This document shows, in pieces, positions 23,251 to 33,843 of a stretch of DNA of 47,664 nucleotides. The notes beneath the pieces were generated by a model. That model was not told where the DNA came from. It searched no databases and saw only the letters and a program-made list of their open reading frames with translations. The stretch comes from a virus: IMG/VR virus record IMGVR_UViG_3300037247_000186, positions 1-47,664 of that record; one strand, 5' to 3'. Made by a program: the position numbers and the translations under genes. Each line of letters begins with the position of its first letter. The first letter of the stretch is position 1.

Positions 23251-23649
23251 TTATGCTACTTCTCTGCTAGCCCTATACTTATGGTTGACCTGGTTTTTCA
23301 TACGACCATCATACAGATCATTCTCTACAAATACGTCAAGTTCCTTACCAGCAGCACTAGCTAGATCGAATCTCTTTCCTGGTACTACTTCCACACCAAA
23401 TGCTGATAGAAATCCAACAGCAAATCCAATAGCCTTGCTGTTAAAATTCCAATCTAGAGGAACATCAGCGAATTCTGTATCTCCATTGTCTGCATTGTGT
23501 AGAACAGTTCCCTCTACAGGGTAATTAGTTGAACCTTTGTCCTTACTCAGTTTTTCTCCTATAGATTCAATCTTTACTCTATACCATACTCCAGGAGTAA
23601 GAAGTTTACCACGTAGAATATCTCTTTGACTGAATTCAATAACAGGCAT
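23251..23649 (-). CDS. putative single-stranded DNA-binding protein (DUF669-like)
   Basis: 132 residues. N-terminal VWYRVKIESIGEKLSKDKGSTNYPVE followed by regular beta strands and KRFDLASAAGKELDVFVENDLYDGR matches the OB-like pattern of short phage SSB-type proteins that accompany Sak4 recombinases. It starts 38 nt downstream of the Sak4-like gene. The C-terminal tail is basic rather than the acidic tail of bacterial SSB. Function inferred from fold pattern and neighbour. Confidence 0.55.
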   Translation of the reverse strand: MPVIEFSQRDILRGKLLTPGVWYRVKIESIGEKLSKDKGSTNYPVEGTVLHNADNGDTEFADVPLDWNFNSKAIGFAVGFLSAFGVEVVPGKRFDLASAAGKELDVFVENDLYDGRMKNQVNHKYRASREVA

Positions 23650-23686: not shown

Positions 23687-24475
23687 TTAGAACTTCGTTA
23701 CTGGTGCAGTATCCTCCATCTTATCTATTGCTGGTTTGATATACTTCTCATAGAGTGGTTGGTTCTTGAAGTTAATTCTACGAGGAAGTGGTAAGCAAGT
23801 CCGCGCATAATCTTCTCCAGTATGAACTGTTAATAGGCCATAGTCTCCTTCCTTATCAACATCGAAAGCTGATTTGATATCGAAATGATATATTTCATCA
23901 CAGTAAGAAGCTATCTTTCCACTGATAGTTTTGCCTCCTGTAATAATAATTCTACTCTGGTGTGTTGAACCTACTTCTTCAAGACTGCGTTGTCCAACAA
24001 CATGAGCAATTAGAATGATATTGACTTTGTGGTAACTTTTAATATCCTTGAGCAAAGCAATCATTTCTCTAAATGCGCTTGCTTCCGCTTTGTAATCCTC
24101 AAGGCTGTTTACAGGAATGCCACCTACTTTAGCTCCCTTACCTTCGCTTCCCTTAACCTTGATAGTCTGACTGTTTATTGTGTCTCCAGTAGAAGTAACA
24201 GAATCTACGATAACTGTTTTGTATGGGCAATTTACCTGTAGCTCCTCTAACTTCTTTTTGATAGAATCCCAATTAGTATAGTCATCAAAATGAACTTCTT
24301 TGAAGTCTACTCCCCATTCCTTACCAGGGAGAATAGTAGCTCCCATCTTTTGATCTGTGCTAATCCAATATTGCGGTGTTGGGAATGAGAGAGCCTGTGT
24401 TGACTTTCTAGTTCCTGGCTCGCCCTTAAACATAAAAAAGAAAACTTCTGGATGGACTTCTGCTAGTGTAGGCAT
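23687..24475 (-). CDS. Sak4-like RecA-type recombinase / AAA ATPase
   Basis: 262 residues. Walker A GEPGTRKST at residues 18-26, Walker B KTVIVDS at 86-92, and IILIAHV as the following sensor strand give a minimal RecA core, typical of phage Sak4 (AAA_24) proteins that pair single strands with help from SSB. No N- or C-terminal DNA-binding extension is visible, as expected for this class. Overlaps the zinc-finger gene upstream by one base and precedes the SSB-like gene. Confidence 0.8.
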   Translation of the reverse strand: MPTLAEVHPEVFFFMFKGEPGTRKSTQALSFPTPQYWISTDQKMGATILPGKEWGVDFKEVHFDDYTNWDSIKKKLEELQVNCPYKTVIVDSVTSTGDTINSQTIKVKGSEGKGAKVGGIPVNSLEDYKAEASAFREMIALLKDIKSYHKVNIILIAHVVGQRSLEEVGSTHQSRIIITGGKTISGKIASYCDEIYHFDIKSAFDVDKEGDYGLLTVHTGEDYARTCLPLPRRINFKNQPLYEKYIKPAIDKMEDTAPVTKF

Positions 24476-25106: not shown

Positions 25107-26063
25107 TTATATATCCCAAGGCTCCCCAACAATAAAGTTCTTCTTTAATTCTTCTTCGCGCATGTTTCTATCAGCTTCACAGATATCTTTGAACTGACAC
25201 CAACCAAACTTACTATTACAATGAGTGAATCTAGGAGGATAATAACCTGTTTCTTGATAACTAACTAGAAGGTTAGCCCAATAAGGTAGTATCTCTGATT
25301 GCCATTCTAGTAATCTATCTGCTGAGTATGAAATAACTGCACGAGTGAACTTCTCTGCTGGTTTCAGAGAGATTTGAAAACCAATCTTATTGATGATAAC
25401 TGTTCGTGATTCCATTAATAGGCACTGACCAATGAACTGATTATTCAATGATAATTGGCTTCTATTCTGCTGCATTGTTTTATGATCAACAGGATAGATA
25501 CCATTGTTAGTATCAACTCCTAAGTCTAATTTGGCTTTCCATAGAATACGAATATCATCATCTTCGTATAAAAGCTTGCGCTTTACTTCTTCTACAAATA
25601 GAGGAACCCAACTATCTACTTGGTAAAGATCAAAGTACTGTTCACAAGTTTCTAATACCCAACGGTATCCAGTTCTTTTGGGTTTAGTTGTGCTATCTGC
25701 TGGGGTATTCTTAACTCCGGGGTATTCATTAACTTCATGTCCACAAGCAGGAATATGTCCACTAACTTGATCATGAAGGGGAACAAAGTCAGTACAATAT
25801 TTACACCCCTGAATATACATGTTACCTGCTGTTAGTGCCGCACCTACAGCATTAGCATGATTAAATCCTTTGATTCTTTCTCTGTAATATACTTCTAATA
25901 CTTTATGAGTTATACTTCCACACTCTATGGAATTAGACTTACCATCAATAGGCTGAAAATGATAATTAAATCTGAAATCAGCCAGACGCGCACATGACAT
26001 AAGGGTAGTTAGAACTGTGGCATCTAGGACGATGTTCTTCTTTGGTTGTGCTAGGAGTTCCAT
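25107..26063 (-). CDS. Cas4/RecB-like PD-(D/E)xK exonuclease with Fe-S cluster cysteines
   Basis: 318 residues. C24 near the N-terminus and C282, C289 and C295 near the C-terminus (CNSKFGWC, then C) are placed as in the four-Cys Fe-S nucleases (Cas4, AddB, RecB family). Nuclease motifs: H53 in [13 protein letters not shown]180 in WKAKLDLG, and D193-x-K195 in PVDHKTM. A Cys/His-rich insertion lies at residues 87-110. Expected role: end resection of DNA for Sak4-driven annealing. No CRISPR array or other cas gene is present, so a CRISPR role is unlikely. Confidence 0.8.
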
Positions 26064-26664: not shown

Positions 26665-26940
26665 TCAGTCATCTATCTCGGTCCATTTCTTCACTTTTTC
26701 AGGAGAACCCCAGCAATTTCCTGGAGTATAGTTGTATATCAAGATAATCCAGTTGTGTAATGCTTCCAAATTTTCGGTATCTGCTCTTGACACGGCTTCA
26801 AACAAATCATTCTTCAAAACTGCCTGTAAAAAATGACCTGGAAGTTTGTGCCGATTTACATATGCACGAATAGCAAGATGCATGTATTCTGGAATATCTA
26901 TCTCGTCCAGTCCCTTTTCTAACTCTTTCTCTTTAAACAT
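26665..26940 (-). CDS. conserved small phage protein (NDLFEAVSRADxEN family)
   Basis: 91 residues. IPEYMHLAIRAYVNRHKLPGHFLQAVLKNDLFEAVSRADTENLEALHNWI and the closing NCWGSPEKVKKW follow a pattern found in very many phage genomes. The family is helical and of unknown function. Start overlaps the upstream stop by one base (TAATG). Confidence 0.7.
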   Translation of the reverse strand: MFKEKELEKGLDEIDIPEYMHLAIRAYVNRHKLPGHFLQAVLKNDLFEAVSRADTENLEALHNWIILIYNYTPGNCWGSPEKVKKWTEIDD

Positions 26941-27080
26941 TATACTTCTTCCTCAAATACAATAGTCTTAACTATACGAATGATACGAAATGGATGATCA
27001 TGAGACTTTCTAGTTTTTAGATAATCATATGCATTAATGAGAGTTCTTTCTTTTCTAAGAGTCTCCCATTTCTTGCCCAT
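26940..27080 (-). CDS. 46-residue hypothetical protein
   Basis: Opens WETLRKERTLINAYDYLKTR (preceded by MGKK) and ends in strands (FRIIRIVKTIVFEEEV). Its TAA overlaps the next ATG (TAATG). Ribosome site weak. Helix-then-strand pattern fits a real small protein rather than random ORF. Confidence 0.5.
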   Translation of the reverse strand: MGKKWETLRKERTLINAYDYLKTRKSHDHPFRIIRIVKTIVFEEEV

Positions 27081-27115
27081 GAGAGTCTGGATTAGGAACC
27101 TTTTACTTGACAAGG

Positions 27116-27274
27116 TTATAATCCATGTTTCTTGTCATGAGTCATGTTCTTGATAATCTTGCTTAAACTAATGAAGTTTGTTCCCCTTGCTCTAGCAGTC
27201 TTACAGGTATCACATTCACAATCACAGTCAGACACCCAACATACTTTACAATCTTTATTAGGATCACGTTTCAT
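27116..27274 (-). CDS. 52-residue Cys-rich protein
   Basis: Six Cys within residues 9-24 (C9, C12, C17, C19, C21, C24) around VCWVSDCDCECDTCK, a likely zinc-cluster or knuckle, followed by a basic helix. Its start lies in the third copy of a repeat derived from the helicase 3' end (27271-27300), which supplies the leader. Function unknown. Confidence 0.5.
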   Translation of the reverse strand: MKRDPNKDCKVCWVSDCDCECDTCKTARARGTNFISLSKIIKNMTHDKKHGL

Positions 27275-27300
27275 ATACTAGCCATTCTTTGTAACTTACT
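27271..27300 (-). repeat. helicase-end repeat, copy 3
   Basis: Thirty bases match 27663-27692 with two mismatches. Read leftward they give the words of the helicase C-terminus followed by ATATGA, and here they act as leader and start codon region of the 52-residue protein. Confidence 0.85.
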
Positions 27301-27481
27301 ATATGATTTCTGTTCTAAATTCTATAAATTCATAATCCTTACTTATTAACTCTTTATCAAGTGTTTCTCTAGCTAATTTAATGCAATCTTCTAGTGAATT
27401 CTTATCTCCCTTGACCATGTCCACTCTAACTGTAATAAAACTGTTGCTTGATTTTGCTATGAATATGTATTTTTTAATCAT
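27299..27481 (-). CDS. small hypothetical protein
   Basis: 60 residues, strand-helix-strand with a charged helix (NSLEDCIKLARETLDKELI). Its start lies in repeat copy 2 (27478-27499). The leader GGATGGCTAGTAT before the ATG is the copied helicase end, giving a usable GGAT/GAGG ribosome site. No family recognised. Confidence 0.5.
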   Translation of the reverse strand: MIKKYIFIAKSSNSFITVRVDMVKGDKNSLEDCIKLARETLDKELISKDYEFIEFRTEII

Positions 27482-27499
27482 ATACTAGCCATCCTCTGT
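27478..27499 (-). repeat. helicase-end repeat, copy 2
   Basis: Twenty-two bases identical to 27663-27684. It overlaps the stop of the 55-residue membrane protein and the start of the 60-residue gene. Confidence 0.9.
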
Positions 27500-27666
27500 T
27501 AACCCCTCCACTCTTTACCAATCCATAAGAGTAGAATACAGATCCATGAAAATAGAGATTCTATACTGCTTTCAACATCAGCTAACTTAATTACTATAAT
27601 TAGACCAATACAAATGCTTATAATACTGTGCCAAATTAATCTCCACATATCTACGGATTCCATCAT
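27499..27666 (-). CDS. 55-residue two-span membrane protein (holin candidate)
   Basis: ATG 27666 overlaps the helicase TGA (ATGA). Two hydrophobic segments, IWHSIISICIGLIIVI and LFSWICILLLWIG, are joined by a short acidic loop (ADVESSIES), and the C-terminus is charged (KEWRG). This is the topology of small class-II-like holins, but it is encoded on the early strand away from the endolysin, so another membrane role is equally possible. Confidence 0.5.
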   Translation of the reverse strand: MMESVDMWRLIWHSIISICIGLIIVIKLADVESSIESLFSWICILLLWIGKEWRG

Positions 27667-27692
27667 ATACTAGCCATCCTCTGTAACTTACT
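27663..27692 (-). repeat. helicase-end repeat, copy 1 (source)
   Basis: The 3' end of the SNF2-type helicase, coding for SKLQRMASI-stop. Copies at 27478-27499 and 27271-27300 head two small genes downstream. Confidence 0.9.
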
Positions 27693-29348
27693 GGCTTGTC
27701 GTGCTATATTATCTGCTAACTCTGCAATGATATCACCCTGTTTCCATACAGGTGCTTCGCCTTGATTCATTGCTGCATGGAAGTTTGCCCTTTTTTCTTC
27801 GACGATACTCGCAAGGAATTCATCAACCGTTCCCGCTGCCGTGATATATGTTCCATTGACTTGGCTTGCAGTCTGCCCTATTCTAATGAAACGACCTTCC
27901 GCTTGTTCTTCATTAGCTGGATTCCATTGCCTTTCATGCATTACACAATCTGCACAAGTCTGTAGATTTAATCCTTCTCCGCTAGCTTGTGTGGATGCTA
28001 TGAGAACACAGGTCTCACGCGCATTAAATTGTTCTTGAACTACAAATCTATCTTCTGAGCTTAGTGAGGCTGTGAGTTTCATTACTTCCATACCTTGCTT
28101 CTCAAACTCACTAGCCAGTAATACACCTACATCCTTATGATGGACAAATACAACTATCTTCCGTCCAGTTTCATTAATGTGATCTGTTACAAACTCTACA
28201 GTAGCAGGTATCTTAGCTAATCCAGTGATATGTCTCATTCGCGCAAGTCTAGCTAACATGCTACTTTGAGTCTCGAAACTTTCTTCTTCTCCACCGATAA
28301 CCTTTTCATTATACCATTTGACAAACTCACTAACTTCTTCATTATAAGCTGCTTGTTCTACTTTATCTAGTTCAGTATAATGAATGACTCGATTTATGAG
28401 TGGAAGCTCTGCCATTACTTCTGTTCGTTCACGCCTAATAACTATATCAGATACATACTCTTTGAATTTCTCTGGTTTGCGGATTCCACCTACTTTAGTT
28501 CTTGCACCATAATTGTATGTATCTACCCATTCATCAAAGAATCCCTGATAGGAGTAGAATCTTTTGGGGTCAATCATATTCAGAACAGGATAAAACTCAC
28601 TCCCTCTATTCTTCCAAGGAGTGCCAGATAGGGGAATAACATTCTCTGTTACTTCTACTAGCTGCCTAACTTCTTGTGTTCTAGCTGAATCAGGATTCTT
28701 AATCTGTTGACATTCATCCAGGATGATAGTCTTAATTCCTGCTGCTATTATCTTTTCCCTATCGAACCGACGCAGCAGATCATAAGATACTATATAGACA
28801 TTTAGTCCTGGTAGTAAAGGGTCTTTACTAGTCTTGATAGCTTGGGCTATATACATTGGGCCAAGCCACCTAATAAATTCTTTGAACCATTGAAACTTGA
28901 TACCAGACTTAACGATGGTTAGAACTGGAAACGCTTCTGGATGATATGCTAGATATGCTAGAACTTGGATAGTTTTACCTAATCCCATTTCATCAAATAC
29001 ACCTGCACCCTTATGGGTCGCAAGTGCCATTTCAATGAATCGCGCACCTTCTATCTGGAAGTCAAACAACTTGTATGCATTGCATAGAACACAGTGGTTC
29101 CTATCCCATTCATGATCACATCCACTATCCTGATGATCATAAGTAGTGAACAAATGGAATGGCGTATCTTTTGGAATGACAACTGTAATGATATGGAAAC
29201 AGTCTAGTGTGATTAGTTTGACTGTCTCACCTTTATCATTTTTAGTTTCGAGAGTGAATCTCTCTTTAGCTACTTTGCCACATTCAGGACACTTTTCCTG
29301 TAATCTTGTGACTCTGCGTTTGGATGATTCTGGGGGTGCGGTTATCAT
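27663..29348 (-). CDS. SNF2-family helicase/translocase
   Basis: 561 residues. N-terminal Cys pairs (C20, C23; C77, C86, C89) suggest a zinc-binding module. Helicase motifs: I DEMGLGKTIQ (119-128), II DECQ (211-214, the usual DEAH box variant), III SGTPWKNR (241 on), V SGEGLNLQ and VI AEGRFIRIGQ. SF2 Swi2/Snf2 proteins of this length are common in phages and translocate on double-stranded DNA, helping replication or recombination. It is followed at once by three small genes that carry copies of its 3' end. Confidence 0.85.
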   Translation of the reverse strand: MITAPPESSKRRVTRLQEKCPECGKVAKERFTLETKNDKGETVKLITLDCFHIITVVIPKDTPFHLFTTYDHQDSGCDHEWDRNHCVLCNAYKLFDFQIEGARFIEMALATHKGAGVFDEMGLGKTIQVLAYLAYHPEAFPVLTIVKSGIKFQWFKEFIRWLGPMYIAQAIKTSKDPLLPGLNVYIVSYDLLRRFDREKIIAAGIKTIILDECQQIKNPDSARTQEVRQLVEVTENVIPLSGTPWKNRGSEFYPVLNMIDPKRFYSYQGFFDEWVDTYNYGARTKVGGIRKPEKFKEYVSDIVIRRERTEVMAELPLINRVIHYTELDKVEQAAYNEEVSEFVKWYNEKVIGGEEESFETQSSMLARLARMRHITGLAKIPATVEFVTDHINETGRKIVVFVHHKDVGVLLASEFEKQGMEVMKLTASLSSEDRFVVQEQFNARETCVLIASTQASGEGLNLQTCADCVMHERQWNPANEEQAEGRFIRIGQTASQVNGTYITAAGTVDEFLASIVEEKRANFHAAMNQGEAPVWKQGDIIAELADNIARQASKLQRMASI

Positions 29349-29729: not shown

Positions 29730-30458
29730 TCAACTGCCATTTGGTGATTCACCCTTCAACCTCTTTAACTCCTCCGCTGCTTGAACAGGAGTAAGGTTCT
29801 TAGCTACACATAACATCTGTAATGTAAACTCACTTACATCTAGTTCATTTGCAACCCGTCTCAATTCTTTCTTGTCAAATAACTTAGGCTTAGGTGTCTT
29901 TGGCTTACGCTTTGGTTTAGATGGCGCCACAGGCTTATAATTGATGTCACTAAGTCTAAGTTCTTCTCTTTTATCTTCTCTGATCTTGTTAGCTAGATCA
30001 TTTAAGTATTGCTGGATACTCCTTTGTTCACTAGTAATGCCGATCTTCTGTTCATCTAATTCAAATAGAACTGATCTAAGATGAAGAAATCTATCTTTTA
30101 ATTTTTTGGCTAATTCATAATGTTTATCAGTTACATTATCATCAGCTTCAATAGATTGCTTCATATCTATGATAGAAACGGTATTAGCATTGAATAAGTC
30201 TGCTCTTACTTGAATAGTTTGGTCTATTTCTAATTGTTCGACTAGCTCATCACTTATAGGCTCTCCTCTATATTGGTCTATAACAGCCTGATTAACTCTT
30301 TCAAGTGAAGCAGTATTAGCTTCTGCTACTCTATCATCTGCTGTAGCTTCTAACTCTTTCTCTAATTCATCTTCTTTATCCATGCAATCAGGACACATCT
30401 TGAGAAGAGGATCTACAGAGACAACTAACTGTTCGCATCCTTCGCAGATTTCAGGCAT
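29730..30458 (-). CDS. hypothetical protein with zinc knuckle and coiled coil
   Basis: 242 residues. CEGC and CPDC in the first 25 residues make a zinc knuckle. Residues about 28-165 form long charged helices (coiled coil), a Lys/Pro-rich linker follows (KPKRKPKTPKPK), and the C-terminus (LRRVANELDVSEFTLQMLCVAKNLTPVQAAEEL) looks like a helix-turn-helix or UBA-like helical domain. DNA- or protein-bridging role possible. Overlaps the 39-residue zinc gene upstream by 8 nt. Confidence 0.6.
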   Translation of the reverse strand: MPEICEGCEQLVVSVDPLLKMCPDCMDKEDELEKELEATADDRVAEANTASLERVNQAVIDQYRGEPISDELVEQLEIDQTIQVRADLFNANTVSIIDMKQSIEADDNVTDKHYELAKKLKDRFLHLRSVLFELDEQKIGITSEQRSIQQYLNDLANKIREDKREELRLSDINYKPVAPSKPKRKPKTPKPKLFDKKELRRVANELDVSEFTLQMLCVAKNLTPVQAAEELKRLKGESPNGS

Positions 30459-31529: not shown

Positions 31530-31558
31530 ACTCTACCACACTCTCGGACCCTTGTCAA
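31530..31558 (-). promoter_or_regulatory. leftward sigma70-type promoter for the replication operon
   Basis: On the minus strand: TTGACA at 31558-31553, 17-bp spacer, TAGAGT at 31535-31530, with TGTGG as extended -10. It shares TTGACAAG, TCCG and TGTGnTAGA with the other two leftward promoters. Would drive genes from 31254 leftward. Confidence 0.7.
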
Positions 31559-31566
31559 TGTCCTTA

Positions 31567-33390: not shown

Positions 33391-33419
33391 AGTCTATCAC
33401 AACTCCGGGGACTTGTCAA
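33391..33419 (-). promoter_or_regulatory. leftward early promoter
   Basis: TTGACA (33419-33414), 17-bp spacer, TAGACT (33396-33391), with TGTGA before the -10. The -35 box overlaps the stop codon of the gene at 33416-33622. Same last 11 bases (TGTGATAGACT) as the promoter at 33646-33674. Confidence 0.75.
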
Positions 33420-33622
33420 GTCTTTTTTGGAAGCCTCAAGACCTCGATTTCTGCCTTGTATTCGCTACTCGAAAGAAATGCAAAGTCGCATGGGTCATTA
33501 GTCTCGATAGTGATAATGTTATCTCCAGGGTTTGTCCTGATTGATATTTCTATTCCCATCTTTAGGACGGGATTAGTTTCCACGTCGTTCTTACGGTTAG
33601 CTGCCTTGAAGTTGAATCCCAT
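33416..33622 (-). CDS. small early hypothetical protein
   Basis: 68 residues with an excellent ribosome site (AGGAGG, 7 nt before the ATG) and a promoter 24 nt upstream. Beta-rich (MGIEISIRTNPGDNIITIE, then YKAEIEVLRL). Likely strongly expressed early. No family recognised. Confidence 0.65.
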   Translation of the reverse strand: MGFNFKAANRKNDVETNPVLKMGIEISIRTNPGDNIITIETNDPCDFAFLSSSEYKAEIEVLRLPKKT

Positions 33623-33645: not shown

Positions 33646-33674
33646 AGTCTATCACAAATCGGATCGGTTGTCAA
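33646..33674 (-). promoter_or_regulatory. leftward early promoter
   Basis: TTGACA (33674-33669), 17-bp spacer, TAGACT (33651-33646), TGTGA extended -10. It overlaps the 3' end of the gene at 33652-33843 and lies just upstream of an AGGAGG-started gene. Confidence 0.75.
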
Positions 33675-33843
33675 GGTAAAAATGGATCTGATTCACCACC
33701 ACGTAAAACAGGGACCGATTCTCCCCATGCCAAGTAACTGTCTTGTATTCGACTAGATATTTGTCCATTCCATTGAGAGTCGCGCACCACACTTTTGCAT
33801 CCCGGAGACTGTGGCAGGTTTTCACTACATCTCCAATGTCCAT
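33652..33843 (-). CDS. small early hypothetical protein
   Basis: 63 residues from ATG 33843, chosen for AGGAGG 6 nt upstream; the in-frame extension to 33942 runs through the upstream gene. Strands (GDVVKTCHSLRDAKVWCATL, YLVEYKTVTWHG, FYVVVNQIHFYL) predict a small beta protein. The ribosome site is partly held in a hairpin (33853-33869). Confidence 0.65.
   Translation of the reverse strand: MDIGDVVKTCHSLRDAKVWCATLNGMDKYLVEYKTVTWHGENRSLFYVVVNQIHFYLDNRSDL

Follow-up and report, generated by a model that had tools for sequence, protein, structure and literature searches.

Copies of a helicase gene end at the starts of successive small phage genes as probable scars of short-homology recombination

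How phages gain and lose tiny genes between core genes is a long-standing question. Arbiol et al. 2010 reportedly described mobile regulatory cassettes of T4-type phages (PeSL), in which repeated non-coding elements between small genes, said to carry a promoter and a stem-loop, were proposed to aid modular shuffling. Pope et al. 2011 (PMC3029335) reported that gene 68 of the mycobacteriophage Island3, an ORF that has no homologues, ends in a 60-bp duplicate of the 3' end of gene 67. The sister phage Brujita has a single recombinant copy, and the difference, called the first such event in mycobacteriophages, was explained by recombination between short repeats; according to the same paper, most mosaic joints have no identifiable boundary repeats (PMC3029335). 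The start-associated sequence (SAS) of Cluster K mycobacteriophages is a 13-bp element with 11–19 dispersed copies per genome, located upstream of start codons (PMC3203893).

Here we describe an array of helicase-end repeats in a window that comprises all 47,664 nt of IMG/VR record IMGVR_UViG_3300037247_000186, a complete circular phage genome with a 127-nt terminal repeat and 39% GC. The order on the minus strand is 29730–30458, a 119-aa gene, an SNF2-type helicase (27663–29348, 561 aa; Pfam PF00176 and PF00271, phrog_62), ORFs of 55, 60, 52, 57, 91, 98 and 99 aa, and a PD-(D/E)XK exonuclease (25107–26063; PF12705, phrog_1218), which is conserved in relatives and forms the far border of a variable slot. 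Beyond the exonuclease, on the same strand, lie three small genes, a gene for a Sak4-like single-strand annealing protein (23687–24475; phrog_124, E = 8.8e-17) and a gene with weak SSB similarity (23251–23649), so that the Sak4-like and exonuclease genes share a gene cluster with the array. Among cultured phages, the array region had no close DNA relatives, the nuclease had no matches and all helicase matches were below 60% identity. A host search in GTDB returned a single 36% helicase match on a Pacearchaeota MAG contig, which is uninformative on the host. Elsewhere in the genome, three related repeats of ~30 nt (31530–31559, 33391–33420 and 33646–33675; AGTCTATCACAA...TTGTCAAG) lie upstream of early genes and are possibly promoters or operators.

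The original prediction held that the last 22–30 bases of the helicase gene recur twice, each time at the start of a small gene, and both points were confirmed. The helicase 3' end, AGTAAGTTACAGAGGATGGCTAGTATATGA, recurs in both downstream copies, and the repeat, (AGTAAGTT)ACARAGRATGGCTAGTATATGA, is present in three minus-strand copies and nowhere else in the genome. Copy 1 (27663–27692) is the native helicase end and reads AGT AAG TTA CAG AGG ATG GCT AGT ATA TGA, encoding the terminal SKLQRMASI*. Copy 2 (27477–27499) is identical to it over 23 of 23 nt, rather than the 22 first proposed, and copy 3 (27271–27300) over 28 of 30; its two differences (CAG/CAA and AGG/AGA) are both synonymous in the helicase frame. 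The repeat is real and not a product of chance: three sites were found at up to three mismatches compared to 0.02 expected in shuffled sequence, and when the leaders of 84 gene starts in the window were compared, the three repeat pairs had ungapped match scores of 24, 23 and 16, with no other pair scoring above 12. When searched in IMG/VR, the exact repeat matched only the same phage, including a second record (L066, sample 3300043256) whose array is 100% identical; the array is therefore not a quirk of a single assembly, and an assembly artifact is unlikely. In that sample the phage is split into two nearly abutting records, whose ends lie at 27725 (L004) and 27727 (L066). The break lies 33–35 nt outside repeat copy 1, and we rejected it as a read-out of recombinants, since recombination between the repeats does not account for these positions. 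The only other record of the phage showed no recombinant.

The array has the order helicase-R1-ORF55-R2-ORF60-R3-ORF52, in which the repeats are stop-to-start linkers and the ORFs differ. At its end, each copy includes the start codon of a small ORF (ATG at 27666, 27481 and 27274 for the ORFs of 55, 60 and 52 aa). Copy 1 is in the helicase frame and the helicase TGA overlaps the ATG of the 55-aa ORF (ATGA); copy 1 doubles as the leader of this ORF, so that the three leaders involve just two additional copies. The hydrophobic 55-aa ORF (minus strand, 27499–27666) stops directly before copy 2, its TAA adjoining the start of the copy in frame with the QRMASI* codons. The TAG of the 60-aa ORF (minus strand, 27299–27481) overlaps the first bases of copy 3, which leads the Cys-rich 52-aa ORF (minus strand, 27116–27274); the 57-aa gene that follows (minus strand, 26940–27113) belongs to a conserved family usually found downstream of the nuclease in relatives. 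That there are three small genes here, as first claimed, holds best for the 60-aa ORF, whose codon score exceeds that of 95% of spurious ORFs; the 55-aa and 52-aa ORFs are present, with marginal coding support by the same score. The inserts encode only the 55- and 60-aa ORFs, which gave no significant Pfam or PHROG matches, and carry no recombinase or transposase of the kind expected in an integron-like or transposon insertion.

Could the leaders and genes have been duplicated together? A leader and its gene duplicated in tandem as a unit, with the genes later diverging or being replaced, would be consistent with the similar spacing of the copies (185 and 207 bp), and one relative, L126, may be an example (its ORFs, perhaps paralogues, begin with MT[LI]D.L.L and align over 64 columns). 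However, the three ORFs in the window have no detectable similarity to each other although their leaders are 93–100% identical, which rules out divergent paralogues as their origin and makes tandem duplication very unlikely.

We compared the array with related loci to identify the source of the repeat. It was absent from all 62 helicase relatives of a first scan; a nuclease-based scan then brought L076, the closest relative found (helicase 69% identical), and further scans yielded none closer. The L076 helicase ends in ASKLKKMASF* and that of the window in ASKLQRMASI*. Because the tail ASKL(K/Q)(K/R)MAS(F/I)* is common to the L076 helicase, the helicase end is likely to be the source and the direction of copying to run from helicase to copies, as had been suggested. 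With L076 (AAG AAG) as outgroup, the two G-to-A changes in copy 3 are derived. L076, known from a single metagenome contig, also has an exact 41-nt copy of its own helicase end. This copy lies 86 bp downstream, past the start codon of the next ORF and in its reading frame (MTNSKLRDLLAEKLVQDASKLKKDEYF...), inside the coding region. Among 108 distinct helicase ends, those of L076 and the window alone have a downstream copy (scores of 41 and 25, respectively, compared to a maximum of 16 among 1620 control stretches). The borders of the two duplications differ and both are much younger than the helicase split, indicating that they were probably separate events. A 16-nt match between the helicase end and a downstream gene in L062 is out of frame and possibly due to chance, and was not counted as a helicase-end copy.

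These data also bear on whether the repeat is instead a functional start-associated leader, a ribosome-site or regulator-binding element of the SAS kind kept by selection, with the helicase end merely overlapping one copy. The placement of all three copies exactly at start codons, each containing AGAGG or AAAGA, fits such a role; leaders of the SAS type exist (PMC3203893), and relatives have a multi-copy leader of their own. Against it, the three copies are all adjacent and no other gene start in the window carries the repeat, ruling out a dispersed motif; the repeat has no stable RNA fold (z-scores of 0.12, 1.10 and −1.94); and the helicase-end copy of L076 lies within a coding region. We therefore consider a selected leader unlikely. 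Promoter-like matches numbered 7 compared to 4.3 ± 2.1 by shuffling, which is no clear enrichment. The relatives' leader was found directly upstream of starts in GC-richer genomes (for example, L039:5457, L021:5443, L037:3713, and L062:4240 and 4725; core CCGAAAGGA) and forms a GAAA-tetraloop hairpin holding the Shine-Dalgarno bases. Its outer stem of at least 3 bp was present in 50 of 72 distinct instances compared to 16 expected after shuffling, with compensatory changes. It had no Rfam match in the loci scanned, was absent from the window and looks like an undescribed translation-control element.

To place the array in a wider setting, we surveyed 117 dereplicated loci of relatives (1.18 Mb) for short direct repeats 60–4000 bp apart. 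Among 35 such repeats, both copies covered gene starts in 11, compared to 0.27 expected, although these counts are approximate, gene calling having relied on a crude choice of ORFs. Two of the 11 are from the window itself, two involve the hairpin leader and one (L191) appears promoter-like; the other six still exceed expectation. No junction repeats were found in the control phages T4 (50 kb), T7 and RM378; the start mask missed the known SAS repeats of TM4 and thus undercounts in GC-rich genomes. Inspection revealed, in several relatives, a single unrelated small ORF between repeats at stop/start junctions: RKDIQS*/ATGA in L062, where the flanked ORF is similar to relatives only as far as the start of the repeat; [VI]R*/MPTL in L074, ahead of the Sak4 gene; KLKR[IT]KELE*/MTI in L123; NEDE*/TAATG at the nuclease end in L130; and a repeat at the helicase start in L116. 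In L065 the repeat around such an ORF is leader-only, and L126 is perhaps a further case. Several other kinds of repeat were seen in these loci, including dense low-complexity repeats of the TAATTGTAGTTATTGT type (L109:1817–2100), several spaced, operator-like copies of TGTCAATA[CT]CCAAATA... (L027:1344–2660) and tRNA-T-arm-like sequences (GGTTCAAGTCC, GGTTCGAGTCC; L074:7168 and 7266, L194:1906 and 2244) that are probably tRNA genes or fragments.

Flanked ORFs in L123, L062, L074, L130 and L116 share their first codons with the next gene and their last with the previous one. This is what would be expected if new genes arose from non-coding DNA, a stretch between junction copies gaining its start from one and its stop from the other, and the weak coding signal of the 55-aa and 52-aa ORFs points the same way. 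Yet the flanked ORFs also include conserved phage genes of an ordinary kind (70 and 83 aa in L062) and the codon score of the 60-aa ORF is normal, so that we regard gene birth as quite unlikely to explain the array.

Judging from the sequences of sister loci, small genes turn over in the slot between helicase and nuclease. What directly follows the same helicase stop varies among the sisters L039/L040/L042, L041 and L053: a gene of 52 aa, nothing at all, or a short Cys-rich segment sharing the frame of the next gene. The joints in L039, L041 and L053 have only a few shared bases, with no repeat left. Repeat-linked insertion is therefore one route and not the sole one, and the suggestion that duplicating gene ends is a general way to add small genes stands only in part: junction repeats around single small ORFs do recur in relatives, but 106 of 108 helicase ends have no copy, and in sisters a small gene comes and goes in this slot with only a few shared bases at the joint. 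The proposed link to an adaptor locus found no support: no comparable leader repeat was found there. Relatives keeping the same three genes behind unrelated leaders were not seen. Instead, relatives have no counterparts of the extra ORFs, including no homologue of the 55-aa ORF among their loci, save one weak match to the 52-aa ORF upstream of the helicase in L136/L137; homologues of the 57-aa gene, like this weak one, are located elsewhere in relatives.

We favor, with somewhat better than even confidence, the reading that staggered recombination through short homology left the repeats as scars where genes overlap, with the helicase-end copies stemming from the insertion of small ORFs. Because the two genes overlap (ATGA), the final ~25 nt of the helicase gene contain the ribosome site of its neighbor. 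A molecule from a donor or sister would bring an intact helicase end and a small ORF, and a few homologous bases would serve to join the end of the donor's small gene to a site within the helicase end of the recipient. What is left of that helicase end would persist as leader and start of the old neighbor, and surviving joins would be those preserving both the helicase C-terminus and the neighbor's start. Such scars would be kept because the ribosome site of the next gene lies within the end of the upstream gene: an insertion can leave both genes functional only by duplicating the overlap, and losing the leftover piece would cost one of them. Copy 2, identical and next to the helicase, would be the younger scar and copy 3 the older, an order that rests on two substitutions. 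Recombination between copies would remove one or both small genes cleanly, the predicted products of 1×2 or 1×3 exchange keeping the helicase ...SKLQRMASI*.

The Sak4-like protein, a candidate agent of short-homology recombination, and the exonuclease could plausibly have carried out these joins. The Sak4 protein of HK620 acts as an annealase with the help of an SSB, usually the product of an adjacent gene (PMC5928155), and Red-type systems recombine diverged DNA (PMC2327257). We infer the crossover type, the agent and the order of events; our scans, in which the closest helicase is only 69% identical, found no near-identical sister that has a single copy and lacks the insert, so the events in the array are read from one genome. 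A passive recombination scar suffices to explain the data and an active copying process is not needed. It is rather doubtful, though conceivable, that junction duplication is a common family route of small-gene gain, even of gene birth, making the accessory region a self-maintaining cassette array with no dedicated recombinase. If so, a duplicated junction would give start and stop to DNA caught between its copies, and the same repeats would permit clean later loss.

Compared with known systems, the array resembles PeSL in having repeated elements between small genes but differs in that its repeats have neither a stable fold nor clear promoter enrichment. As with SAS, which precedes small non-structural genes, a short repeat lies within a few bases of start codons; unlike the dispersed 13-bp SAS, however, the three copies here are adjacent, 22–30 nt long and encode a helicase tail. 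The closest likeness is to Island3 and Brujita, where a small gene without homologues also stands behind a gene with a duplicated 3' end. In Island3 the inserted gene ends in the copy, and the single recombinant copy occurs in a near-identical sister, whereas here two extra copies form the leaders and starts of successive ORFs and no such sister is known. The array thus belongs to the kind of gene-end duplication described by Pope et al. 2011, with two consecutive scars and a broader recurrence across one phage family, which shows several boundary repeats exactly at overlapping gene junctions.
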